From NCBI RefSeq assembly GCF_001049895.1, contig NZ_CVPE01000004.1, positions 372,001 through 436,000 on the forward strand: 64,000 nucleotides of DNA. Direction: 5' to 3'. Position numbers and translations under genes: made by a program. This document shows, one piece after another, positions 5,757 through 49,597 of this stretch. Position 1 is the first letter of the stretch; each line of letters begins with the position of its first letter. Below the pieces are notes generated by a model, which saw nothing but the letters and a program-made list of their open reading frames with translations, did not search any database and had not been told where the DNA came from. Source of the stretch: Rubeoparvulum massiliense (GTDB lineage Bacteria > Bacillota > Bacilli > Rubeoparvulales > Rubeoparvulaceae).

Positions 5757-6003
5757 TAAAGGACTCATACCATGCAGGAGAGGCTTCACTCTGTACGCCA
5801 ATCGTACCTTGACCGGCCATTGTGATCACATCATCAAAGGCGAGAATAAAGGTTCGCCCCGTTTCTTTCACCAATTGATACGCATACTCTTCTGCTTCAT
5901 CATAGGATGTACCAAGCTGTACGATTTCTCCACCATATCGTTGAATTCCGTTAATTTTTGCTTGGGCTGTATTATCTGGAACGACGACAAGAGCAGAGGT
6001 GTC
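5757..6003 (-). pseudogene. Internal fragment of a threonine-dehydratase-like PLP enzyme
   Basis: The minus strand encodes an in-frame stretch with VVVPDNTAQAKINGIQRYGG, GTSYDEAEEYAYQLVKETGR and FDDVITMAGQGTIG. These are characteristic of fold-type II threonine/serine ammonia-lyases (IlvA/TdcB) around the pyridoxal-binding domain. The N-terminal PLP lysine region and the whole C-terminus are missing, and the frame runs straight into the ABC fragment at 5754. It is a relic produced by rearrangement. Confidence 0.75.
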
Positions 6004-6034
6004 ATATAAAGAGAGTGTTCTCAGCTATTCCATA

Positions 6035-6480
6035 AATATTACAATTTATCTTCGCGAATGATATAAACAATATTGCTTGAATATCATCATTATGTTACTA
6101 TTTTAGTATATTTTTACATAATAGGAGGAGGTTTGTTGTATGAAACGCTTTTTCATGGGGATCATCGTGGGCATTATATTAACCAGTTCCTTTGCTGTAT
6201 TCGCCGCCAATGGTAAAATGATTGAGGTCATCTATTCAATCAAGGATATTAAGATCAATGGTGTTTCCAAGATGCCAAAGGGTGAGAAACTTCAACCTTT
6301 CGTATACCAAGGGAGTACATTCGTGCCATTGCGTTTTGTTAGTGAGAACTTAGGCTATCTTGTTGAGTGGGACGGAGCTACCAATTCCATCTTAATCGAT
6401 GAAAAGTCTCGAAAAATTGAGAAGGTGGTTTATCCAGGTGATGGAATTAAAAACTCATACTTGGAGGGTGCAGAAGAAAA
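6035..6480 (+). repeat. Duplicated block, copy 2
   Basis: This is the second copy of the block at 84-530, including about 105 bp of upstream sequence. It starts abruptly beside the threonine-dehydratase fragment, so the junction near 6035 marks one edge of the duplication. Confidence 0.9.
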
Positions 6481-6901
6481 AAAAGGTTGGCTGCAACCTT
6501 TAATTTGGTATGAAGAAACAGTCCGTGGAACACTTTTTGATCTTAACAACCAGGAATTTGATCGATATATGTATTTTTCAAGCAACCACTTCAGTTATAA
6601 AAACATAACCACAAAGGTAGAGTTTACATTAGATGAAAAATATGATCAGTTTGCAGCTACTGTAGGATATGGCGAAAAAAATGCAGATAGGTCTCCAGAC
6701 TATAGATATGATAAGCTCCATGTAAAATTTTTAGTAGATGGTAAATTATACAAGGAAATTCTCATTAAAAAAGATGAACCTTACCATACTGTCAAAATTC
6801 CCCTGAGTAATGCTAAGAAGTTTGAAATTATCTATGATCGTAATGCACCAAGTAATGGACTCGCACTATTTAATCCTGAGTTTATCAAGTTCCAGAAATA
6901 A
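6140..6901 (+). CDS. Secreted stalk-domain/NPCBM-like protein, paralogue of 189-944
   Basis: The 253-residue product has the same signal peptide and stalk domain as the gene at 189-944 (only two or three differences in the first 110 residues). The C-terminal NPCBM-like domain is clearly diverged (for example QFAATVGYGEKNADRSPDYRYD against QFATTIGYAERKMENFEDYIHD). The ATG at 6140 follows AGGAGGAGG at 6123-6131. The last codons (FNPEFIKF) and the downstream hairpin are shared again, although the terminator here has lost pairing and its T-tract. A conserved surface anchor with a variable binding domain is the simplest reading. Confidence 0.8.
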   Translation: MKRFFMGIIVGIILTSSFAVFAANGKMIEVIYSIKDIKINGVSKMPKGEKLQPFVYQGSTFVPLRFVSENLGYLVEWDGATNSILIDEKSRKIEKVVYPGDGIKNSYLEGAEEKKGWLQPLIWYEETVRGTLFDLNNQEFDRYMYFSSNHFSYKNITTKVEFTLDEKYDQFAATVGYGEKNADRSPDYRYDKLHVKFLVDGKLYKEILIKKDEPYHTVKIPLSNAKKFEIIYDRNAPSNGLALFNPEFIKFQK

Positions 6902-7038
6902 TTTAAGAGCACTAAAATAAGCAGACCCCCACTAATCTTTCCTTGAAGGATTGGTGGAGGTTATTTAAGTTGATAGATTATCACTCTTTCATATCCTGAT
7001 TTAATGCCAAACATAAAGCGAGGCTAAAATGTATATTG

Positions 7039-7371
7039 CTAATTAGCGCTTCTTACTTGCATGATCAGCTTGACAATAATGTCCTCATCCATCAAAAAAT
7101 TATTTTCTATAGTAGCTTCTTCAATCTCTACAATATCCCGAGTCCTGTAGTAATTAACCTTAGAAAAAGGATCGTTTTCTACATATTGTTTGGCTAACTG
7201 ATAAGATGGTGCATCGATAATCATTAATGCTGTACCATCCATACATGGACCACAAAATGGTAGAACCCCCTTTTTCTTTAGTTCTCTTAAGTATGAAGCA
7301 TGTTGTCGCATCAACTCCTCATTCATTAATTCTTTTTGTTTATCTGATAATCGCACAATGAATTTTATCAT
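7039..7371 (-). CDS. YciI-like (YCII-related) domain protein
   Basis: The 110-residue product shows the compact alpha-beta YCII/dimeric ferredoxin-like fold: MIKFIVRL, then RQHASYLRELKKKGVLPFCGPCMDGTALMI and the YVENDPF motif characteristic of the family. Biochemical roles of YciI proteins are mostly unknown; some members act in breakdown of halogenated aromatics. It is a single gene on the minus strand between the paralogue at 6140 and the ABC module, with no clear operon partner. Confidence 0.8.
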   Translation of the reverse strand: MIKFIVRLSDKQKELMNEELMRQHASYLRELKKKGVLPFCGPCMDGTALMIIDAPSYQLAKQYVENDPFSKVNYYRTRDIVEIEEATIENNFLMDEDIIVKLIMQVRSAN

Positions 7372-7488
7372 GATTTTCCACCTCTCAACAATTTCAATAC
7401 CATATCGAGGTATGTGATAAGTTTTCCTCCTATACCAATATGTTTATTAATAGTATAAGAAATAATTAAATCTACAGTATCTAGTTGC

Positions 7489-7524
7489 TTGAACCTCTCA
7501 TGACTTTAACCAAGGGAGGTTCAA
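7489..7524 (-). terminator. Terminator between ABC module and YciI gene
   Basis: TTGAACCT pairs with AGGTTCAA around a 20-base loop, followed by ATTTT on the plus strand. It lies just beyond the end of the TetR-MFS-FtsX-ABC operon, but the T-tract favours the plus strand, so the direction is uncertain. Confidence 0.45.
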
Positions 7525-7563
7525 TTTTGTCCTAACCTATTTCTCTTTCGCTGGGAAGCCATA

Positions 7564-8322
7564 TTAAATCCCTATTTCCCGCATTTTTGCCGTCACTTTT
7601 CTCATCCTATCCTCAAAATCTGTGCCAGTGAATCGCCTAAACCGCATTTCACTCACGATCTTTCCGTCACGCATAAACAGAATACGCTCCGTTCGAGCAG
7701 CAATCTTTGGATCGTGAGTTACTAGCATAACCGCTGTACCTTCTGCGTTAATTTCAGAGAAGATATCCATAATTTCCTCTGCAGATTTGGAATTGAGCGC
7801 GCCAGTTGGTTCGTCACCAAAGATAATTTTCGGGTTGCTAATCAGTGCACGGCATATTCCTGCACGCTGTAGCTGCCCTCCTGAAACCTGAGTAATATCA
7901 CGCTTTTCCAGTTCGCTAATCCCAACCTTTTTCATTAGTACTCTTGCTTTTTCAGTAATCTTCGCAACATGTTTTCTATGATCCCGCATTGAAGGCAGGA
8001 TGATGTTATCAAGAAGGTTTAGGTTTTTAAGCAAAGTGGGCTGCTGAAAAACAAAGCCCATCTTTGTTCTGCGTAGATCGGCAAGCTCCTGTTCACTCAG
8101 TGCTGCTAAATCCCTGCTTTCAAATGAAACCTGCCCACCATCAATCTCATCCATCCCACTCAGTGCATACAGCAATGTTGATTTTCCTGAGCCTGAAGGT
8201 CCCATAATGGAAACGAACTCTCCCTCGTTGATTTCAACGGATACATCATCGAGAACAGTCTGTTTTTCATAGCCTACTCCGAAGGATTTTACGATCTTCT
8301 CACCGATAATCATCTTCTTCAT
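7564..8322 (-). CDS. ABC transporter ATP-binding protein (MacB/LolD-like)
   Basis: The 252-residue product carries Walker A GPSGSGKST (41-49), Q-loop VFQQP (92-96), signature VSGGQ (147-151) and Walker B IIFGDEPT (167-174), with the H-loop VTHDP downstream. It belongs to the family of ATPases paired with FtsX-like permeases that export peptides, drugs or lipoproteins without full substrate translocation through the membrane domain. It lies three bases downstream of the permease gene and is the last gene of a TetR-MFS-permease-ATPase operon. A fragment of this gene has been copied to 5582-5754. Confidence 0.9.
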   Translation of the reverse strand: MKKMIIGEKIVKSFGVGYEKQTVLDDVSVEINEGEFVSIMGPSGSGKSTLLYALSGMDEIDGGQVSFESRDLAALSEQELADLRRTKMGFVFQQPTLLKNLNLLDNIILPSMRDHRKHVAKITEKARVLMKKVGISELEKRDITQVSGGQLQRAGICRALISNPKIIFGDEPTGALNSKSAEEIMDIFSEINAEGTAVMLVTHDPKIAARTERILFMRDGKIVSEMRFRRFTGTDFEDRMRKVTAKMREIGI

Positions 8323-37097: not shown

Positions 37098-37790
37098 AGG
37101 GGCTGCCCAGAAAGTCAGTGAAAGCTGACGTCTGGACGCCCCATTTTTGTTGAATGTTAAAAATGTACGCAAAAAAACCGTCTCTTCCTATAAAATGAAA
37201 GTTACCAGACCACCATTTTAAGAAAGGAACGGTTTTTATGCGTAATCTAACGACTACTACGGAACAGTATACCATGCACATGATATTGGATCTGGAATCG
37301 TTGATCCCTGCTCACCATGTGGCTCGTGTCATTGATGAGATGATTGAAGCCATCCCAGACGAGCAGTTGTTTGTTCATTATACAGGTGGAGGTCATCGCG
37401 CCTACCACCCCAAAATGATGCTGAAGGTGATCCTTTACGGCTACTCACAAAAAGTCTATTCCTGTCGTGGCATCGAAAAGCTGCTGCAAGAAAATATCCC
37501 AGCCATGTGGCTAGCCGCCATGCAACAACCCGATTTTCGTACGCTGAATGACTTCCGTGGTCAACGGATGAAGGCGTTCATGGATGAACTATTTGAAACG
37601 ATGATCCGAAAGCTCATCGCGGACAACTACATCACAATGGAGCATTATTTTCTGGATGGCACCAAGATCGAAGCCAATCCCAACAAGTATTCCTTTGTGT
37701 GGAAAAAATCGACGCTGCGATTTGAAGAGAAATTGAAAGAAAGGATTCAGGCAACCCTTCCTACTCCTCTTCCCCATACACATCCAACAA
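37098..37790 (+). mobile_element. Truncated IS1182-family insertion sequence
   Basis: The left end GGGGCTGCCCAGAAAGTC at 37099 matches IS1182-type inverted repeats and forms a strong hairpin with 37128-37143. The transposase gene starts at 37238 behind AAGAAAGGAACGG and encodes the N-terminal DUF772 region (ESLIPAHHVARVIDEMIEAI, GGGHRAYHPKMMLKVILYGY, FRTLNDFRGQR) up to the DGTKIEANPNKYSFVWKK motif. It ends near 37785, where it runs into the histidine kinase gene. The catalytic C-terminal half and the right end are missing, so it is inactive. Confidence 0.9.
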
Positions 37791-38669
37791 AAGTATACTC
37801 ACAACATACCGATTATCTTCGAACCATTGATTATAAATTCCACCATGCTCTTCAACGATTCGTTTCACATTTTTTATTCCGATTCCCTCGGTTTGTCGAT
37901 GCTTTCGCGTATGAAGCTCCTCCCTATTAAATACATTTGAAATTTCAATAAGCAGGTTATGATCAAATTGTTTGATGAGGAGTGAAATCTCTTTTTCTTT
38001 AAAATGAGACAAACGTAAGACCGCCTCTAACGAATTATCGATTAAATTTCCTAGTACCACTACCAAAATGTCCGTATCCAAATGAAGCTCTTCTGGGAGG
38101 AAAGATTGAACGCTTACCGTTACTCCATTGCTTTTAGCAGTCGATACTTTTTCATTCAGAAAATAATTTAAGACAAAGTTATTTGTAAAAAAATAATCAC
38201 TGTCTTCGATTTTCTGGATGGAACCTTGAAGATATGATTTAGCGCCAGTAATATCGTGTTGACTTAACATCCCAAGTAGAACAACGTATTGATTTTTTAG
38301 GTCGTGCTTCATGGAATAGAGTTTAGATTGTGAATCCTTCAGTTGTTGGAGGTATTTCAATTCGGCTTCCAATACTTTCTTTTGTGTTGTCGTTTTTTCA
38401 AGTTGTTTATAATAATTTCCAAGGGTTATATAAAGATATAGGATGCAAAGATTCATATAAATAATAAATGCAGCTATACATATAAAAATAAAATTGGGGT
38501 TATTCACCACATAAATTTCCGACACGACAGCAGTACTTAACAGAAATACCGAAATCAATGGTATAGAAAAAATGACCATGACGAAAAAAACATGGATAGG
38601 TAGCTTTAATTTAAATTTTTGAAGAAGGGTAATGATCAAAATAACTACAACCATTAGTATGAAAGCCAT
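37761..38669 (-). CDS. AgrC-like sensor histidine kinase (GHKL/SpoOB-type)
   Basis: The 302-residue product has three membrane helices (about 2-15, 26-49, 60-84), a dimerisation helix with the phosphoacceptor in SMKHDLKNQ (His122), N-box NLIDNSLEA and G-box GIGIKNVKRI. This resembles HPK10 quorum-sensing kinases such as AgrC, but with fewer membrane helices than the usual five to seven, so the sensor may be truncated. The last seven codons (DVYGEEE) come from the IS1182 sequence, so the natural end is lost. Start at the ATG 38669 after GGAGGG. The response regulator gene is directly upstream. Confidence 0.83.
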   Translation of the reverse strand: MAFILMVVVILIITLLQKFKLKLPIHVFFVMVIFSIPLISVFLLSTAVVSEIYVVNNPNFIFICIAAFIIYMNLCILYLYITLGNYYKQLEKTTTQKKVLEAELKYLQQLKDSQSKLYSMKHDLKNQYVVLLGMLSQHDITGAKSYLQGSIQKIEDSDYFFTNNFVLNYFLNEKVSTAKSNGVTVSVQSFLPEELHLDTDILVVVLGNLIDNSLEAVLRLSHFKEKEISLLIKQFDHNLLIEISNVFNREELHTRKHRQTEGIGIKNVKRIVEEHGGIYNQWFEDNRYVVSILLLDVYGEEE

Positions 38670-38697
38670 ATCTTTCCCTCCAGCCACTCATATCCAT

Positions 38698-39414
38698 TCA
38701 ATAGATGAAGTCTCGTAACTTCATCAAAAGTTGTTTATTCGCATGATCTTTAAATTTCCGGCTTATTGGTATGTCAACTGTTTGTTTATCGTTTACTTTC
38801 ATCGTAACGGTATTATTTCTAACTTGTTTTATATATCTAACATTAACAACAAACGAGGTGTGAACCTGTACAAAGTTATCATTCACTTTGGATAAAAGGG
38901 CTTTGGTGTGAAGAATCGTTTCATATGTATCAGAAGGTGTATGAATAAATGCTTTCCGTTTATTTTTTTCAAAGTAAATAATGTCACTAAAAGGAAGACT
39001 GTAAAAAACTTTGTTAAATGTAAACGTAAATTTCGATTCATTTAAATCTAAATATTTGATTGCGCGATTCAAGGCAGCATGTAATTTACTTTTTGTTACT
39101 GGCTTTAAAATATAATCAAACGTATTCACTTTAAAAGCTTTTTCCATATATTCTTTGAAACTTGTAATAAAGATAATCGGAGAAGTATAGTTATTCCCCC
39201 TAATGGCCTCGGCAATCTCTAAACCTGATAGATTGGGAAACTCCATATCTAAAATAAACATATCATATGTATTTTCCTCTAGGGATTCAATTAATCGAAG
39301 AGGATTATAGAATATATCCATTTCAAATAAGGAGGAGTCATATTCTAACAATAACTTTTCAATTTCTTTTGCGGTTATAGGAACATCATCGCAAATAGCA
39401 ACTTTTATTACCAT
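38698..39414 (-). CDS. LytTR-family response regulator (AgrA-like)
   Basis: The 238-residue product has a receiver domain (acidic pair Asp9/Asp10, phosphorylation site Asp56 in ILDMEFP, Lys in LKPVTKSKL) and a C-terminal LytTR DNA-binding domain (about 135-235, with ETILHTKALLSKV, FVQVHTSFVVNVRYIKQV and the final PISRKFK). LytTR regulators typically drive bacteriocin or peptide-quorum genes. AAAGGAG supports the start. It forms an operon with the kinase downstream. The likely targets lie divergently to the right. Confidence 0.92.
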   Translation of the reverse strand: MVIKVAICDDVPITAKEIEKLLLEYDSSLFEMDIFYNPLRLIESLEENTYDMFILDMEFPNLSGLEIAEAIRGNNYTSPIIFITSFKEYMEKAFKVNTFDYILKPVTKSKLHAALNRAIKYLDLNESKFTFTFNKVFYSLPFSDIIYFEKNKRKAFIHTPSDTYETILHTKALLSKVNDNFVQVHTSFVVNVRYIKQVRNNTVTMKVNDKQTVDIPISRKFKDHANKQLLMKLRDFIY

Positions 39415-39801
39415 TTTTTCACTCCTTTAGACCATCGTAAATGAGTGTCTTTTACTAAAAAATTTGTATAGCAGTCATGGGGTTGATAATAGGTGATTAT
39501 TTCTGCATGAAGACACACTAGCATTGTAATTAAATAAAACCTCTTAAAAACAAAAGGTAATTTCTACTATGTAGCATGTCCTGCACTTTTCCTCGAAAAT
39601 AGCTATCAAGGAATTAATGTTTAGTATAAAAGTTCCTTTACCCTACTTATTAGACTAGTACAATTATTACATGTCAATTGTTACATCTAACTTACGTATT
39701 ATTACACAAGGGAAATGTTTCCAAAAATTCGCGTTATTATTAACGCAAATAGAAATATTAATTTCTATTTTGATTCAAATAATATATAGGTAGAGGAGGG
39801 G
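39415..39801. other. Regulatory region right of the two-component genes
   Basis: No gene. It contains a 14-bp tandem direct repeat (CAATTATTACATGT/CAATTGTTACATCT, 39661-39688) and two adjacent palindromes, GCGTTATTATTAACGC (39731-39746) and AGAAATATTAATTTCT (39751-39766). A consensus AGGAGGGG site at 39794-39801 follows. These are candidate binding sites for the LytTR regulator or another factor. Confidence 0.5.
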
Positions 39802-39942
39802 AATGAAATAGAAAACGTTGTGTACTCCAAACCAACAATTGAGAAAGTTGCTGGATTTATAGAGTCAAAAGTGGTCATTGGACAATTCAAAGTTGTCCAG
39901 TGGCCACTATTACTAGGTCTTATATGTCATCTGAAAGCTTAA
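39802..39942 (+). pseudogene. Possible RiPP (lasso-type) precursor leader remnant
   Basis: A strong binding site (AGGAGGGG) precedes an ATG at 39803 that meets a stop after two codons. The overlapping frame reads NEIENVVYSKPTIEKVAGFI, which resembles lasso precursor leaders (Y-x-x-P-x-L/I then Gly-Phe). A single-base indel at the start would restore it. The region that should encode the core is a long hairpin (39870-39908), and no acidic ring residue is visible, so no functional core peptide can be read. Confidence 0.35.
39870..39908 (+). terminator. Long hairpin after the leader remnant
   Basis: AGTGGTCATTGGACAA and TTGTCCAGTGGCCACT form a 16-bp stem (two G-U/A-C wobble-type positions) with a 7-base loop. 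The T-tract is weak. In many RiPP operons a hairpin behind the precursor lowers read-through to the enzyme genes. Confidence 0.6.
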
Positions 39943-40079
39943 TCTCTCCCCCAATTCTCGATGTGCTTCTTACGATTGCTTCACATAGAGAATGGATATG
40001 CTGTCATCTTCTTATATTATACGTATCATAGAACATATTTGGAAACAATTGATTTGATTATAGGAGGCTAAAAATTGAT

Positions 40080-40362
40080 TAGAAAATATTGGAAATGAGG
40101 AAAGAGGCGAGGGAGCCATTTTTACTATTCCGTTAGAAGAAAGAATAACAAAAGCAAGTGCTTATAACGTTCCATTTCAAGTAACTATAGAAACATTTTC
40201 GCTACGTATGTTGCTTATTTCTCAGCATGAGTATGTGAAGTATTCCAAAGGTGACCTTACTATATTTTGTTTGCCATCTGAATATCCAAAGGTTGCTGAT
40301 CAGATACACGGTACAAAGGAATTTGAATTATCACAATTAACGGTATTACTTCAATAAATTAT
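40080..40362 (+). pseudogene. Unassigned coding remnant in the degraded peptide locus
   Basis: A plus-strand frame, open for about 75 codons to the TAA at 40356-40358, includes YNVPFQVTIETFSLRMLLIS and EYPKVADQIHGTKEFELSQL. It has no plausible start, and I cannot assign it. A TAGGAGGC-type binding site lies near 40061-40068. Between 39943 and 40060 I see nothing. Confidence 0.35.
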
Positions 40363-40364
40363 CA

Positions 40365-40617
40365 TTAAAGGGATATTTGTCCTAGCTGACCATCATGAAT
40401 GTATAGTAGGAGGAGCATTGTTTGACGTTTCTTTATCATGGAAAATGTTAAATGATCGTTTGCTTATTATTAGTGATTCGGCTAGGGAGATTGCGCGATA
40501 TTGTAATTTAAATCTATCAAAAACAGCAGTTGCATTGAACTTGATCAGTAGTCTACCATATTACCCTTTCCAACAACAATCATTATGGGAAGGTGTGAAT
40601 AAAATTCAGCCATTTGC
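40365..40617 (+). pseudogene. Fragment of an asparagine-synthetase-like (lasso cyclase-type) protein
   Basis: The plus frame reads ...FVLADHHECIVGGALFDVSL, NDRLLIISDSAREIARYCNL, then SSLPYYPFQQQSLWEGVNKI and QPFAK. The last part resembles the linker of AsnB-like enzymes before the synthetase domain (usually PY....T.W.GV..IPPG), as in lasso-peptide cyclases. The synthetase domain is absent: at about 40615 the sequence switches frame and gene to an ABC exporter. It is a deletion relic. Confidence 0.45.
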
Positions 40618-42098
40618 TAAAACTTCCAATCTTTGAATTTGATAAACGAAGTGTTGGGGATTTGCTTAGTAGAGTGAGTGGTGATTCTTCGAGGATGAGA
40701 ATGGCTCTTATTCAAGGAACCATTGCATTAACTAGTGGATCTTTTATTATCGTTGGTGCAGCAATCGGATTAGCTTTAAAAGATATCCTTTTATTCTTAA
40801 CGGCATTAGTAACGGTCGTTGTGTCATTTATTGGAATCCTCTTTATGAGTAATATTATCCAAAGGGCAAGCTTTCGTGTACAAAAAGAACTTGGAAAATT
40901 AAGTGAACTAGTTGAGCGCGATTTACATGCTATCCGAACGATTCGTTCGACCAATGCTACTTCTAACGAGGAGAAAGAGGCGAAACAGCAGGCAGAGAAC
41001 TTACGAAAGTTAGGCATACGTTTGGCAAAAATCCAGTCCTTCATGACGCCAATATCCAATATGAGTTTACAAATATGTGGTCTCATTGTTCTTGGTTTTG
41101 GTGGCTATCGCGTTTCGATGGGATATATGACAATTGAAGATTTAATTGCTTTTGCTTTACTACTTTATATAATGATTGGACCTGTTGGACAAATCTTTGG
41201 GACTTTTTCCGGAATCGGAGAATCGCTTGGAGCTTTTGCACGGATTAGGGAAGTATTAGATCTTGCTTTGGAAAGTGATTATGATACGACTACTAGAATA
41301 ACCACTCTACCTCATTCTTCAGCCCAAAAAGGGATGGTAGTGTTTGAAAACGTTAGTTTTGGATATAACAAGTTAAAGTTTGGAGCAGATATTGCCCAAA
41401 AAGAAGCGGAAATGATACTGAAGGAAGTTTCTTTACATGCAGAACATGGGAAGAGAACAGCTATTGTCGGCCCTTCTGGTGCAGGTAAAAGTACGATTTT
41501 ACAATTAATAGAACGATTTTATGATCCAGACAGTGGACGAATTTATGTAGATGGAAAAGATCATCGAAGTTATCCTCGTGAAGAGCTTCGCAGTCTCATC
41601 ACGTATGTGGAGCAAAATGCCCCTGTTATACCAGGGACGTTACGAGAGAATCTTATGATAGGAAATGCTAATGTCTCTGATCAAGAATGTTACGATGTGT
41701 TAAAAGAGGTCAACCTTAGCTACTTAATCGATCGTTCTCCTGAAAAACTGGATATGGAAATTGGCGAATCGGGTACGACATTATCTGGTGGGGAACGCCA
41801 ACGTTTAGCATTAGCTCGTTCTCTTTTATCGAAGGCAAAGATTGTCCTTCTTGATGAACTAACATCCAATTTAGATAGCTTAAATGAAATAGCGATTAAA
41901 AAAGCTGTTGATAAATTGAGAGAGTCTAAAACGGTCATTATTGTAGCACATCGACTCTCGACCATCGTTGATTCCGATATCATTTATGTTCTGGAACATG
42001 GACGAATCGTTGGTTCGGGTAACCATAATGAGTTACTAGATAAAGTGCCATTATATCGAGAATTAGCTAAAGAGCAGTTTTTGGATAAGGCAATCTAA
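40614..42098 (+). pseudogene. N-terminally truncated ABC exporter (membrane plus ATPase domains)
   Basis: The frame encodes 494 residues of a fused ABC exporter half-transporter. It begins inside the first cytoplasmic loop (KLPIFEFDKRSVGDLLSRVSGDSS), so TM1 and TM2 are missing. Four hydrophobic segments follow, then a complete ATPase domain with Walker A GPSGAGKST, signature LSGGERQRLALARSLL, Walker B IVLLDELTS and H-loop IVAHRLST. Family members are about 570-600 residues and export peptides. The nominal TTG start has no binding site and lies at the deletion junction with the cyclase-like fragment. Probably non-functional. Confidence 0.8.
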
Positions 42099-42167: not shown

Positions 42168-42905
42168 GTGACGAATCAGCCAAACAACATTGTTATCTCA
42201 CATGTAAACAAGCGACATGGAAACAAAGAGATTTTAAAAGATGTGTCCTTTGAAGCGAAACAAGGGAGAATCACAGCTTTTCTCGGGCCAAATGGTGCAG
42301 GAAAAAGTTCAACACTCCGTATTTTGTTAGGACTGGATCGTTCAACAGGCACGGCAACTTTTGGCGGAAGAAATTATGTAACATTTGATACGCCATTGAA
42401 AGTGGTTGGAGCAGCATTTGACGGGATAGGCGGCAATCTTTCGAGAAAGGTAAAAACCCATCTGAAAATCATCGCACAAAGTAACGGCATTCCTAAAAGT
42501 CGTGTAGCAGAAGTATTGAAAATCGTCGGGTTATCGGATAAAGGTAACGCGAGGCTCGGAACGTTATCCTTGGGTGAGGGGCAGCGGCTTGGGCTGACAG
42601 CAGCACTGTTGGGTAACCCACAATATCTTGTCCTCGATGAACCAACGAATGGACTGGATCCAACAGGAATTCGCTGGTTTCGAAAGTTTATTCGTCAGCA
42701 AGCGGACTTGGGAAAGACCGTTTTGCTGTCGTCCCATCTTCTTTCGGAAGTGGAAGCTGTAGCAGATGATGTCGTGATTATTGATCATGGAAAAATCATC
42801 GCAACGGGTGGGCTTCATCAGGTGATGAAGAATCTGGAATCATTGGAAGACGTGTTCTTTTCGCTTACAGAAGAAGATGAGACAATAGATGAAAACTTTC
42901 TCTAG
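42168..42905 (+). CDS. ABC transporter ATPase, LanF/bacitracin-immunity type
   Basis: The 245-residue product has Walker A GPNGAGKSS (40-48), a signature of LSLGEGQ form in place of LSGGQ, Walker B YLVLDEPTNGLDP and H-loop LLSSHLL. It resembles the ATPases of LanFEG and BcrA-type self-immunity transporters that expel lantibiotics or bacitracin from the membrane. The GTG at 42168 follows AGGAGGAG. The permease gene overlaps its 3' end by 17 bases. Confidence 0.87.
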   Translation: MTNQPNNIVISHVNKRHGNKEILKDVSFEAKQGRITAFLGPNGAGKSSTLRILLGLDRSTGTATFGGRNYVTFDTPLKVVGAAFDGIGGNLSRKVKTHLKIIAQSNGIPKSRVAEVLKIVGLSDKGNARLGTLSLGEGQRLGLTAALLGNPQYLVLDEPTNGLDPTGIRWFRKFIRQQADLGKTVLLSSHLLSEVEAVADDVVIIDHGKIIATGGLHQVMKNLESLEDVFFSLTEEDETIDENFL

Positions 42906-43677
42906 AACCGTGCGATTTGAATTAATTAAGATTACTTCAAGTAGAGTGTGGTGGGTCATTTGTGCGTTAGTTGTTGTTGTTCAACCTTTTCTAGCATATA
43001 TCGTAGCCAAAGGTTATGCTCAGATGGGGTTAGACGCGACTCCAGAAACGCATCCGGGATTAGCTGAAGCGTTACCACCTCTCGATTATATTGGATTGGA
43101 ATCTGTATTATTTGGGTTATTACCGATGGTTGTCTTTGGAGGAATCATCGGGGCGAGTGAATTTAAGCATCATGAATTACGTACGACATTACTCTGTCAA
43201 AGTAGTCGTATCCAGGTTTTTGGTGCGAAAGTAATCGCGCTATTGGTATGTACGACGCTCCTATCATTGATAACCATTTGGGCTACGATTTCGATTACGC
43301 ATGTTGGCTTGGGAGAAGAGGGATTACATCCATTATATCTCAGTACGATAGCCTGGCAGTATATTTTCTTTGCAACGCTCAATTGGATTTTATTAACAAT
43401 CCTTTCTTTTGGTATCGGCATGCTCTTTAGAAATGCGCTCGTACCTTTAGTTTTTTTGGTTCCACAAGTTTACAATCTCGGAAACTATTTAGCACAAAGA
43501 TGGGAATGGGCGGAGTATCTCCCAGTGGCAGCGGGTAATCTTCTCTTTGCCACACCAACAGACCCGTTTGAACATGACCCATTCAAGGGCGGAATGATCC
43601 TGCTGATCTGGGTGATGGTAGCTTTAGGAACATCTTATTTCACTTTTGTTCGTAGTGATGTAGGGGGGAAATATTAA
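42889..43677 (+). CDS. ABC-2 permease, LanE-like
   Basis: The 262-residue product has about six membrane helices (for example VWWVICALVVVVQPFLAYIV, VLFGLLPMVVFGGIIGAS, ALLVCTTLLSLITIWATISI, YIFFATLNWILLTILSFGIG). The cytoplasmic SEFKHHELRTTLLCQSSRI motif is typical of ABC-2 immunity permeases (E...LRTTLL). It is the first of two permeases that form a heteromeric channel with the ATPase. It overlaps genes on both sides. Confidence 0.83.
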   Translation: MKTFSRTVRFELIKITSSRVWWVICALVVVVQPFLAYIVAKGYAQMGLDATPETHPGLAEALPPLDYIGLESVLFGLLPMVVFGGIIGASEFKHHELRTTLLCQSSRIQVFGAKVIALLVCTTLLSLITIWATISITHVGLGEEGLHPLYLSTIAWQYIFFATLNWILLTILSFGIGMLFRNALVPLVFLVPQVYNLGNYLAQRWEWAEYLPVAAGNLLFATPTDPFEHDPFKGGMILLIWVMVALGTSYFTFVRSDVGGKY

Positions 43678-44396
43678 TGTACGCTGTCCTCCGTAGTGAG
43701 AAAACGAAATTCTTTTCCTTTGGCTGGTGCATGTTAGGGATCATTGGAGCGAATCTCGTTCCCGTACTTTTCTTATTGACATCCAGCACACCGATAACAG
43801 GGGGAGAGGAGGGAATGCTTTCTCTGATCTTGCAATCCCTCTATTTAGGCCAACTAGGAGTGATTGTTGCCAGCGCAAGTTATTTCGGACAAGAATATTC
43901 ACAATCTGTCTTACGAACAACCCTTCTTACCCAACCATACAGAGTAAAATTATTATTTACGAAATTCGTGAATATTACTGTAATTATTGTTCTTACAGGA
44001 ATCGTTTCGAGTCTGCTTGGTTTAATTGTTTTATTCTTGCAACATGACTTGGAATGGACAAATTCTTTCGGATTACGGTTACTTGAAAGTGTCTCTCTTG
44101 CCATGCTTAGTTGGATTCTATTAGCTTGGATTACGTCAGCATTATCCATTATCACCAAATCGCTGATCACACCGATTGCGATCATGCTCCCGCTTATTTT
44201 GGGACTAAGCCAAATGTTGTTACAAGTTTTTCAGTTAGCAAAGTATTTACCTACGCTTGCTGTGATGAATATTTATACCGTAGCTTCAGTGGGAATTTAT
44301 TTGGATGAGTGGTTGGGCCTAGGGGTTCAGCTTTTGTGGGCGGTGGTGTTGGTCGGGATTGCGGGTTGGTTGTTTGCGTGGAGGGGCGTGCGTTGA
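43677..44396 (+). CDS. ABC-2 permease, LanG-like
   Basis: The 239-residue product has about six membrane helices and the same motif as its neighbour (FGQEYSQSVLRTTLLTQPYRV). Its start overlaps the upstream stop (TAATG). The ATPase-permease-permease order is characteristic of LanFEG self-protection systems. The three genes are intact, unlike the export and synthesis genes on their left, so the cell may retain immunity to a peptide it no longer makes. Confidence 0.83.
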   Translation: MYAVLRSEKTKFFSFGWCMLGIIGANLVPVLFLLTSSTPITGGEEGMLSLILQSLYLGQLGVIVASASYFGQEYSQSVLRTTLLTQPYRVKLLFTKFVNITVIIVLTGIVSSLLGLIVLFLQHDLEWTNSFGLRLLESVSLAMLSWILLAWITSALSIITKSLITPIAIMLPLILGLSQMLLQVFQLAKYLPTLAVMNIYTVASVGIYLDEWLGLGVQLLWAVVLVGIAGWLFAWRGVR

Positions 44397-44659: not shown

Positions 44660-45193
44660 GTGGGGGCTGTTCCATCCAGCTATTATCTATCATAATGTTC
44701 GCTCCGTCTTCCGTTAAGAGATGCTCCATTTGTGTAAGTTCTAATTTTCATGGAAAACGTTTCCGTTTTATGGAATAGCATCATTCTATCAGAAAAAGGG
44801 GATTTCATCGAATCAGTTACCAAATGATCCAGTAAATCTGGTGCAGGCAAATCATCATCATGCAGTTTTTCTGTTGCTATATTGATATGTTTCTGGTACA
44901 TTTTTTCCATGTAGGAAATATTTTCTTGATCTCGGGTCTTGTGCTACTTGACTAAAGGCAACAAGTAGGGCTTTGCTGGTTGCGTCGTTATTTATATTGT
45001 CATACAAATGGCCAATTTCTAAACCATGAAGGGTTCTTTTCTGTCCAAAAAATCCGTTTAGATAACTTTGCCTACCAATATAGTCTATTCCATCTGGTGT
45101 CGGTATTACTGGAGGGTTTCTTAAAAGCCCCTTTGATTCTAAGGCATCATTCACTTCAGCTATCAAATTCGCCGTTTTTGTTAGGCAGTCCAT
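44660..45193 (-). pseudogene. DUF3231-family protein, frameshifted C-terminal part
   Basis: Minus-strand sequence from 45193 reads LTKTANLIAEVNDALESKGL, DGIDYIGRQSYLNGFFG, LVAFSQVAQDPRSRKYFLHG. Near 44905 the frame shifts to KHINIATEKLHDDDLPAPDL and SPFSDRMMLFHKT. Together these follow the second half of DUF3231 proteins, which are common, often spore-related Bacillales proteins of unknown function. The N-terminal half is missing, and a frameshift and altered end confirm decay. Confidence 0.7.
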
Positions 45194-45339: not shown

Positions 45340-45575
45340 CATTATTGAAATGTAACAAATGGCAGTTAATTCATGCAACAAAAAAAGCCGCTTGCCAACA
45401 TCTATAAAAATGCATACACTCCTTTTGGGCATTACGTTCAAGGAGGGTATTTAGGAGATGTTAGCAATGGCTGAGATTCATTATATTAGATTGGAAACAT
45501 ACGTAAAAGACAGGTCTTATGCATCGGTCGCAAACCAGGTGGGCAGAGAGCCTCGAACTGTACAGAAATATGTTT
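45340..45575 (+). pseudogene. IS21-family istA 5' remnant with element end
   Basis: The ATG at 45458, behind AAGGAGG, encodes MAEIHYIRLETYVKDRSYAS followed by VANQVGREPRTVQKY, the N-terminal helix-turn-helix of IstA transposases. The upstream 45340-45415 segment, with TTAATTCATGCAACAAAAA and a GCTTGCCAACA motif, is the probable element end. After about 40 codons the reading passes into unrelated recombinase sequence. Confidence 0.75.
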
Positions 45576-45743
45576 GCATCCGGTGCAAGGATGAAGGACA
45601 TCCAAATGCGACTAGGGCATTCACGAATAAGTACGACAATGGACATCTACACACATGTCATTGAAAAAACAGATGAGCAATTAAGTGAACGTCTGTCAAA
45701 TTATTTGAATGACGATGAAACAGATGACTCACAAAAAGAGTAG
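45576..45743 (+). pseudogene. C-terminal fragment of a tyrosine recombinase (phage/ICE integrase)
   Basis: The frame ASGARMKDIQMRLGHSRIST, then TMDIYTHVIEKTDEQLSERL, is the integrase C-terminus with the HxxR-region LGHS.I.TT and the catalytic Tyr in the YTHV motif. The catalytic core upstream is missing, replaced by istA sequence. It lies right beside rpsI, which suggests the foreign block entered with an integrase-bearing element. Confidence 0.8.
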
Positions 45744-45866: not shown

Positions 45867-46259
45867 TTAACGTTTTGAGAACTGTGGTGCACGACGAGCT
45901 GCTTTAAGACCGTATTTTTTACGTTCCTTCATCCGTGGGTCACGGGTTAGGAAACCAGCACGTTTTAATGGTGCGCGTAGTTCAGGATCTACTTGTAATA
46001 ATGCACGAGCGATCCCGTGGCGAATAGCGCCTGCTTGGCCTGTATAGCCACCACCATTTACGTTAACATATACATCGTAACGACCGATGGTTTCTGTTGC
46101 AACTAAAGGTTGTTTAACGATGGTTTTTAATGTTTCTAAGCCGAAATATTCATCGATGCTTCGTTTATTAATCAGAATCTGGCCATCACCTGGTACGAGA
46201 CGTACACGAGCAATGGAGCTCTTGCGACGACCTGTTCCAATATATTGTACTTGTGCCAC
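45867..46259 (-). CDS. rpsI: 30S ribosomal protein S9
   Basis: The 130-residue product starts [20 protein letters not shown] and ends in the basic RRAPQFSKR tail that reaches the P-site tRNA. It lies 17 bases downstream of rplM, the usual S9-L13 pair, and is the last gene of the superoperon here. Confidence 0.97.
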
Positions 46260-48425: not shown

Positions 48426-49597
48426 TCATCCCCCATGTTCCCAATGCTTCCGTATTTGGACAACCAGATCCTCTACCCGAAAGAGGTTGGTAGGAAGTGT
48501 AACTTTTCCACAGGCATTGATACGCTGGATAAACTGTAAAATTTCTGGTAACTCTAATCCTAAAGCTTCTGCTTCGTCAGCATGGGTGAAGATATCTGTA
48601 GGTGTACCTTCCAGCACCACTCCACCCTGTGACATTACAACAATCTGATTCGCATAGCGGACTACATCCTCCATACTATGGGTAACGAGAATGGTAGTCA
48701 TCCTTCGCTGCTGGTGCATGGTATGGATCAGTTCGAGAATCTCCCGACTACCAGCAGGATCTAAACCTGCCGTAGGCTCATCAAGGATCAGTACCGCTGG
48801 CTCCATGGCAAGAATACCTGCAATAGCCACACGCCGCATCTGCCCGCCACTCAGCTCATAGGGAGAACGTTGATATAGGCGGGGGGCTTGCAAACCCACC
48901 AACTGCAAAGCATGGGGAGCCTTGGCTTCGGCCTCTCCCTGTGGGGTTCCAAAGGTGAGAGGACCGAACATGACGGCATTGAGCACCGTATATGCAAACA
49001 AATGATGCTCTGGATACTGAAGAGCAGGGTAGGGTAAATTCAGAAAATCCCCCGCCACCCAGAGGTATCAAACCCGGCCGTAGGCTCATCAAGGATCAGT
49101 ACCGCTGGCTCCATGGCAAGAATCCCTGAAATAGCCACACGCCGCATCTGCCCGCCACTCAGCTCATAGGGAGAACGTTGATATAGGCGGGGGTCTTGCA
49201 AACCCACCAACTGCAATGCATGGGTAGCCTTGGCTTCGGCCTCTCCTTGTGGGCTTCCAAAGTTGAGAGGACCGAACATGACGTCATTGAGCACCGTATC
49301 TGCAAACAATTGATGCTCTGGATACTGAAAGACCATTCCAACCTGCTGCCTTAAGCCTTGCAGATTCTGCTTGCGATCCGAGGTAATTCGATGTTCGCCA
49401 ACATGGACATCCCCCTTGGTCGGTAGGAGTAAACCATTGAGCAATTGAATCAGGGTAGATTTACCTGAGCCCGTATGCCCGATAATCCCTAGGAATGTGT
49501 GGTCTGGGATGGTGAGTGAAACATCATGGAGGGCCACCTTTTCAAAAGGAGTCCCTTGTTTATACACATACGAGACATGATTTAGCGTAATTTGCAT
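48426..49597 (-). pseudogene. ecfA2: ECF transporter ATPase EcfA2, split by an imperfect internal duplication
   Basis: The first part (from the ATG at 49597) has Walker A GHTGSGKST (40-48), Q-loop FQYPEHQLF, signature LSGGQMRR and Walker B ILDEPTAG, then hits a stop near 49040. The second part (to 48426) repeats the segment from YPEHHLF through DEPTAGLD and goes on to the normal C-terminus. The repeated segment is about 48735-49020 versus 49035-49330, roughly 90 percent identical. Removing one copy would restore a protein of about 288 residues, the usual EcfA2 length. Either the gene is truly broken or the assembly is wrong here. Confidence 0.85.
48735..49330 (-). repeat. Imperfect tandem duplication inside ecfA2
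   Basis: Two adjoining copies of about 290 bp cover the signature and Walker B coding region. Differences are scattered single-base changes, many of them transversions, and become dense near the inner junction (49030-49080). Confidence 0.85.

Follow-up and report, generated by a model that had tools for sequence, protein, structure and literature searches.

Fusions of the B2 leader peptidase to an ABC transporter have been reported in the lasso-peptide clusters of Ruminococcus albus/flavefaciens and others (PMC7533575, where earlier examples are credited to Maksimov and Link 2014 and Tietz et al. 2017). A lasso locus of Streptococcus salivarius carries the published antiSMASH label "related to streptomonomicin" (PMC8546964), and the LanFEG proteins are known as the immunity ABC systems of lantibiotic producers (PMC5786555). 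Here we analyzed a stretch of 64,000 nucleotides from Rubeoparvulum massiliense (contig NZ_CVPE01000004.1, positions 372,001 to 436,000; hereafter the window), in which an earlier note, made from the sequence alone, had combined a leader-like peptide, an AsnB/lasso-cyclase-like fragment and an ABC exporter into a degraded, possibly lasso-type locus. Colinear alignment with intact lasso clusters bears this proposal out, and we consider it very probable that a lasso-peptide cluster belonging to a rare family of Bacillota has recently decayed here.

Intact and damaged relatives of the locus

The use of the ABC gene as bait for intact homologous loci, a check that the earlier note had called for, did retrieve intact lasso clusters: a scan of genome contigs with this ORF recovered Metabacillus malikii DSM 29005 (locus L003), with an exporter 88% identical, and Paenibacillus xylanivorans A59 (L004), with 77%. 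In both, a kinase and a regulator on the opposite strand are followed by genes for a precursor of 42-43 residues, a cyclase of about 585, a B1 protein of 81-82 and a B2-ABC fusion of 752-758 residues, and then by a LanFEG-like trio. Leader, B1, B2 and cyclase models agree on the lasso class of these loci: 1) the leader model NF033521 scores 19.8 bits in L004 (cut-off 19) and 18.7 bits in L003, 0.3 bit below it; 2) the transglutaminase-like B2 leader peptidase matches NF033537 with 79.8-79.9 bits (cut-off 33) and also PF13471; 3) the PqqD-like B1 protein matches PF05402 with 44-48 bits (cut-off 23.4), with its best NCBIfam model, NF033530, below cut-off; 4) the Asn_synthase-type cyclase matches PF00733 with 80-87 bits (cut-off 21), with the lasso-specific NCBIfam models below theirs. 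Both clusters have the precursor, B2, B1 and cyclase C that define a lasso cluster. The same architecture was found in L004, in an S. salivarius plasmid (L019), which encodes two precursors, in record OR846608.1 (L020) and in a Paenibacillaceae genome (L043), so that intact clusters are at hand in L003, L004, L019, L020 and L043. Another Paenibacillaceae genome, L042, contains a second damaged copy (reverse complement 5981-8003), in which a frameshift behind the B2 domain, a stop and the deletion of 235 bp have disrupted exporter D and B2 persists as an ORF of its own; kinase, regulator and LanFEG-like genes are intact there, and a transposase ORF lies between regulator and precursor. L020 is filed as an unverified Enterococcus phage; we rejected a phage origin, as the genes around its cluster, read by eye, are of a bacterial chromosomal type (for an RseP-like protease, a short-chain dehydrogenase and a large helicase-like restriction protein), and the record probably reflects bacterial contamination of the assembly.

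The cluster group is rare. Searches with the cyclase recovered the window genome as sole match among 399 Bacilli, M. malikii alone among the 80 genomes of its family, 3 of the 396 genomes in the family of P. xylanivorans, and no match among viral contigs, while a search with the ABC protein over 200 relatives returned generic transporters alone, except for the window itself. Within the host genome no other homologue of the cyclase was found, the fragment being its own sole match.

DNA alignment of the window with the M. malikii cluster yielded seven colinear homologous blocks separated by defined gaps, and placed remnants of A, C and D in order between the regulator and the LanFEG-like genes, the arrangement expected of a decayed member of this B2-ABC fusion family. 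The ancestral order, as the comparison shows it, was a divergent kinase and regulator, precursor A, a hairpin, cyclase C, B1, the B2-exporter D fusion and the LanFEG-like ABC system.

Lesions in the biosynthetic genes and the state of the flanks

The leader-like peptide VYSKPTIEKVAGF, which the earlier note had described as preceded by a strong Shine-Dalgarno sequence and followed by a hairpin, does align with the M. malikii precursor leader: positions 39677-39866 of the window correspond to the leader region of that intact precursor with E = 2.8e-16. The start, formerly placed at a GTG at 39820, has to be moved, for the alignment to L003 puts the original start codon four codons upstream, at 39808-39810, where the window today reads ATA. 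The remnant of gene A thus comprises a leader only (39808-39867, forward strand, as are the features from here to the integrase remnant below unless stated otherwise; aligned to L003 4478-4676), behind a strong Shine-Dalgarno sequence (39794-39801) that reads directly and aligns with that of the L003 precursor. Relative to L003, 81 bp containing the core and the stop codon are deleted at 39866/39868, and the alignment picks up at L003 4758; the deletion stops at a conserved hairpin (39870-39908, dG -28.3 kcal/mol, z = -5.2 against shuffles) with equivalents in L003, L004 and L020. This conserved intergenic stem between A and C is probably a partial terminator or an mRNA stabilizer.

About the first quarter of cyclase gene C survives at 40118-40615, with 77% DNA identity to L003 5125-5645 (529 bp, E about 1e-109) and an in-frame TAA at 40355-40357. 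The profile searches that the earlier note had advised for this region gave no cyclase, B1 or B2 match, and the C fragment alone matched no Pfam or NCBIfam model; because of this the lasso identity can be decided only via relatives, and it is through them that the "AsnB/lasso-cyclase-like fragment" was upheld, being homologous to an intact cyclase gene that itself matches PF00733. A deletion junction with a short shared sequence follows at 40603-40615; in the alignment, position 40615 pairs with L003 5645, in C, and position 40603 with L003 7991, in D. The deletion of about 2.33-2.35 kb removed the 3' portion of C, B1 and B2 in full and, from D, the N-terminal transmembrane region. Of the 758 residues of a B2-ABC fusion, the remaining D (40614-42098) accordingly keeps the C-terminal 494, which are 88% identical to residues 262-758 of the M. 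malikii protein; its PF00664 (ABC_membrane) match begins at profile position 84 of 274 and its PF00005 match is complete. The "ABC peptide exporter" is thus a real ORF, but one that has been truncated, as the deletion left it without B2 and the first transmembrane helices.

The loss of the precursor core and the maturation enzymes, suspected earlier, can in this way be mapped lesion by lesion. A functional lasso cluster has intact A, C, B1 and B2; the window lacks the A core, most of C and all of B1 and B2. With A deprived of start and core, C interrupted and mostly deleted, B1 and B2 gone and D without its first helices, the locus can no longer give rise to a lasso peptide. A sequencing artefact is unlikely, since there are several independent lesions, two of them deletions. 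The host strain would now be a non-producer, which may retain a sensor-controlled resistance module.

In several copies the cyclase gene has a good Shine-Dalgarno sequence without a suitably spaced ATG, GTG or TTG, and ATT recurs at the expected distance (L003 5136-5260, L020 8977-9010, window 40079-40130, and upstream of C on the reverse complement in L042 and L043); in P. xylanivorans the start region reads ATT-AGC-ATG. These patterns make AUU initiation of the cyclase gene possible. In the S. salivarius plasmid, the N-terminus of the cyclase is split across two frames at a seven-A run (L019 7907-8130); the true start probably lies upstream of the annotated one at 8130, and the split may reflect a sequencing error, a pseudogene or frameshifting.

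The flanking genes are intact, and both neighboring systems named in the earlier note were found. Downstream lie a LanF-like ABC ATPase (42168-42905) and two ABC-2 permeases, LanE-like (42889-43677; PF12730, E = 2.4e-7) and LanG-like (43677-44396; PF12730, E = 7.5e-4, below cut-off), both with homologues in the intact clusters. The ATPase has a PF00005 domain, is 87% identical to its L003 homologue and has the lantibiotic-protection family TIGR03740 as best NCBIfam match (E = 1.4e-51), at 175 bits below the curated cut-off of 310. These genes probably protect the cell from the lasso peptide. Upstream, the AgrC/AgrA-like pair consists of a sensor histidine kinase of the GHKL type (37761-38687, reverse strand; PF14501, 49 bits, cut-off 22), which is free of internal stops and 71% identical in amino acids to its M. 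malikii counterpart, and a response regulator of the LytTR class (38698-39414, reverse strand; PF00072 and PF04397 above cut-off) with 78-80% amino acid identity to the L003, L042 and L043 homologues. Before the precursor gene, at 39678-39706, the motif TTRTTACA is directly repeated with a period of 21 bp; the 2.84-Mb genome has this exact pattern at no other place, and the arrangement recurs upstream of the precursor in L003 and L004. Known sites of LytTR regulators have this 21-bp spacing, and this putative site is therefore probably the target of the adjacent regulator. An Agr-type quorum-sensing system has an agrB peptidase and an agrD signal gene beside agrC/agrA; the ORF lists of the window and the intact relatives show no such genes next to the pair. 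Quorum control of the cluster, as suggested earlier, is conceivable; the pair could instead respond to the lasso peptide.

The locus occupies an island of 31-42% G+C, against about 42-50% outside, between genes on the ybaK/cwlD side and rpsI. At one end a transposase remnant (DUF772; 37238-37930; PF05598, E = 5.5e-18) abuts and overlaps the 3' end of the kinase gene, the homology of which to L003 ends at 37789, and is likely to be boundary debris. At the other, a C-terminal remnant of a tyrosine integrase (45519-45743; PF00589, E = 2.9e-5, 24.3 bits, below the 27.1 cut-off) lies 123 bp from the 3' end of rpsI (45867-46259, reverse strand), and ICEs with tyrosine integrases are known to target this end of rpsI in streptococci (PMC4701971). 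The AT-rich island beside such a remnant was probably acquired horizontally, and we infer that the cluster arrived on a mobile element integrated at the 3' end of rpsI. No convincing att-site direct repeats were found flanking the island. An ORF at 45458-45661, with no Pfam match, joins a transposase-like N-terminus to integrase remnants, which suggests stacked mobile-element remains by rpsI. A DUF3231 gene split in two ORFs beside the LanFEG-like genes (44683-45193) is apparently another decayed gene. At 48426-49597 the ORF list shows a pair of neighboring ECF ATPase ORFs, each of partial length, that have near-identical stretches and look like a local EcfA duplication.

Neutral decay or selected retention

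All four identified lesions (A start, A deletion, C stop and the deletion of about 2.3 kb) affect A, C, B1 and B2-D; the kinase, the regulator and the three LanFEG-like genes have none and contain no internal stops. With the putative site also preserved, the circuit from sensing to immunity is physically complete. Two explanations compete for this pattern. We lean towards neutral decay still underway, in which the island is disappearing as a whole and lesions have simply not reached the kinase, regulator and LanFEG-like genes so far. The mobile-element remnants at both island ends fit this course, as does the state of the exporter. Measured against relatives, and with the L043 cyclase values left out, the retained genes have dN/dS values of 0.08-0.25, the same as pairs of intact genes, and the truncated exporter has 0.08 and no stop in 494 codons. 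These values measure constraint over the whole time since M. malikii diverged (dS about 0.6-1.1), and not selection after decay. A polarized count of substitutions gave no significant shift on the window lineage. An exporter ratio as low as that of intact genes, with no such shift, implies that the decay is recent relative to the M. malikii split, and it is recency, rather than selected retention of the other genes, to which the low ratio and the open 494 codons of the exporter point. Against neutral decay stand the completeness of the regulator circuit, the immunity-type genes without any lesion, and the similar pattern in L042.

The second explanation, which we hold possible though less well supported, is that the kinase, the regulator, the putative LytTR site and the LanFEG-like pump were kept by selection, as a module to resist or eavesdrop on the lasso peptides of neighbors, and that the loss of production was adaptive. 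It draws on the confinement of all four lesions to A, C, B1 and B2-D with the other five genes spared, and on L042, where exporter D is likewise broken beside intact kinase, regulator and LanFEG-like genes. This second case speaks for a repeated loss of production in which the remaining genes were retained; two cases, the window and L042, are nonetheless too few to decide against neutral decay. Moreover, the two targets are similar in size (about 4.4 kb and 3.9 kb), so that four lesions on one side have a probability by length of about 0.08, which by itself is not significant, and the retained genes are no more constrained than the truncated exporter. In its most specific form, that selection has reduced a lasso cluster to a peptide-sensing, producer-free resistance circuit of GHKL sensor, LytTR regulator, 21-bp-period site and LanFEG-like pump, the proposal appears to us rather unlikely; such a circuit would detect and resist lasso peptides made by neighbors, and, if it is real, the parallel breakage in L042 would make this reduction a recurrent evolutionary route. 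The producer/non-producer pair offers a clean test of the LanFEG-like pump as immunity and of the LytTR circuit as a part of autoinduction. It is very improbable that the truncated ABC ORF works together with the LanFEG-like genes as an exporter or resistance system without relation to lasso peptides, for despite its 494 open codons and complete ATPase domain the ORF begins inside the transmembrane domain (position 84 of the 274 in the profile), and every one of its relatives is the C-terminal portion of a B2-ABC fusion in a lasso cluster.

Predicted peptides and comparison with known systems

Intact relatives share the leader pattern Y-x-K-P...T-x, and the Y, the P, the T at -2, G1 and D9 are present in all intact precursors; the cores start with Gly after a T-[KRS] dipeptide and have Asp at position 9. 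The seven predicted cores, GVWFGKFTDVFGGKAVFAIVY, GFFAGKWTDVYGGKAFVRIEF, GLWTGKFRDVFGGRALFQVVIYY, GLWTGKYTDVFGGRALIKIIIQT, GLVAGRFRDIFGGRALFLIRI, GLWTGNFRDVFGGRAIVRVKIEF and the divergent GQRFGYYRDLFGGRSQSFWL, have G1, D9 and an [FY]GG motif in common, that of L042 being the most divergent. By the established biochemistry of lasso peptides, B1 would bind the leader in the intact relatives, B2 would cleave it after T-x, C would link Gly1 to Asp9 around the tail, the B2-fused exporter would secrete the lasso peptide, and the LanFEG-like pump would protect the cell; the expected product would have a nine-residue Gly1-Asp9 ring. The ancestral product presumably had antibiotic activity. The intact relatives form a small, rare group of Bacillota/Lactobacillales with very similar and apparently uncharacterized cores (e.g. 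GVWFGKFTDVFGGKAVFAIVY and GLWTGKYTDVFGGRALIKIIIQT), which are candidates for activity against Gram-positive bacteria.

We scored resemblance of the cores to known lasso peptides as composition-controlled alignment z. Six of the seven resemble streptomonomicin (sequence from PMC12427821) beyond composition, with z of 3.2-6.0, which agrees with the antiSMASH label of the S. salivarius locus mentioned above. SSV-2083 gave an intermediate score, and siamycin, anantin, ulleungdin and sungsanpin were rejected as relatives with scores near the shuffled level. Streptomonomicin, an actinobacterial peptide, has like these cores 21 residues, ring closure at D9 and a tail start resembling D-[IV]-[LF]-G-x-x-A-L; it has Ser1 where they have Gly1, and the L042 core is without similarity to it. 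We regard this likeness as a lead, and not as a demonstration of a common target.

In comparison with the described architectures, the intact relatives share with the Ruminococcus-type clusters the union of B2 peptidase and exporter in one protein beside A, C and a separate B1, but differ from them in occurring in Bacilli, in a second ABC system, which is LanFEG-like, and in the usual presence of a GHKL/LytTR two-component system; the window has, in addition, lost the core, B1, the B2 part and most of C. The paeninodin-type clusters (paeninodin, pseudomycoidin; PMC8498205) are likewise lasso clusters of Bacillota with separate B1, B2 and exporter, whereas the clusters described here have B2 fused to D and lack the HPr-kinase-like gene, the nucleotidyltransferase and a C-terminal Ser in the predicted cores. 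The trio in the window is like LanFEG (PMC5786555) in combining an ATPase with two ABC-2 permeases and in the best NCBIfam match of the ATPase, TIGR03740, yet this ATPase falls below the curated cut-off, and the trio sits with a lasso and not a lantibiotic cluster. As B2-ABC fusions have been reported previously, the architecture has precedents, to which the Bacilli branch, its family of cores and its decay add further members and variants.
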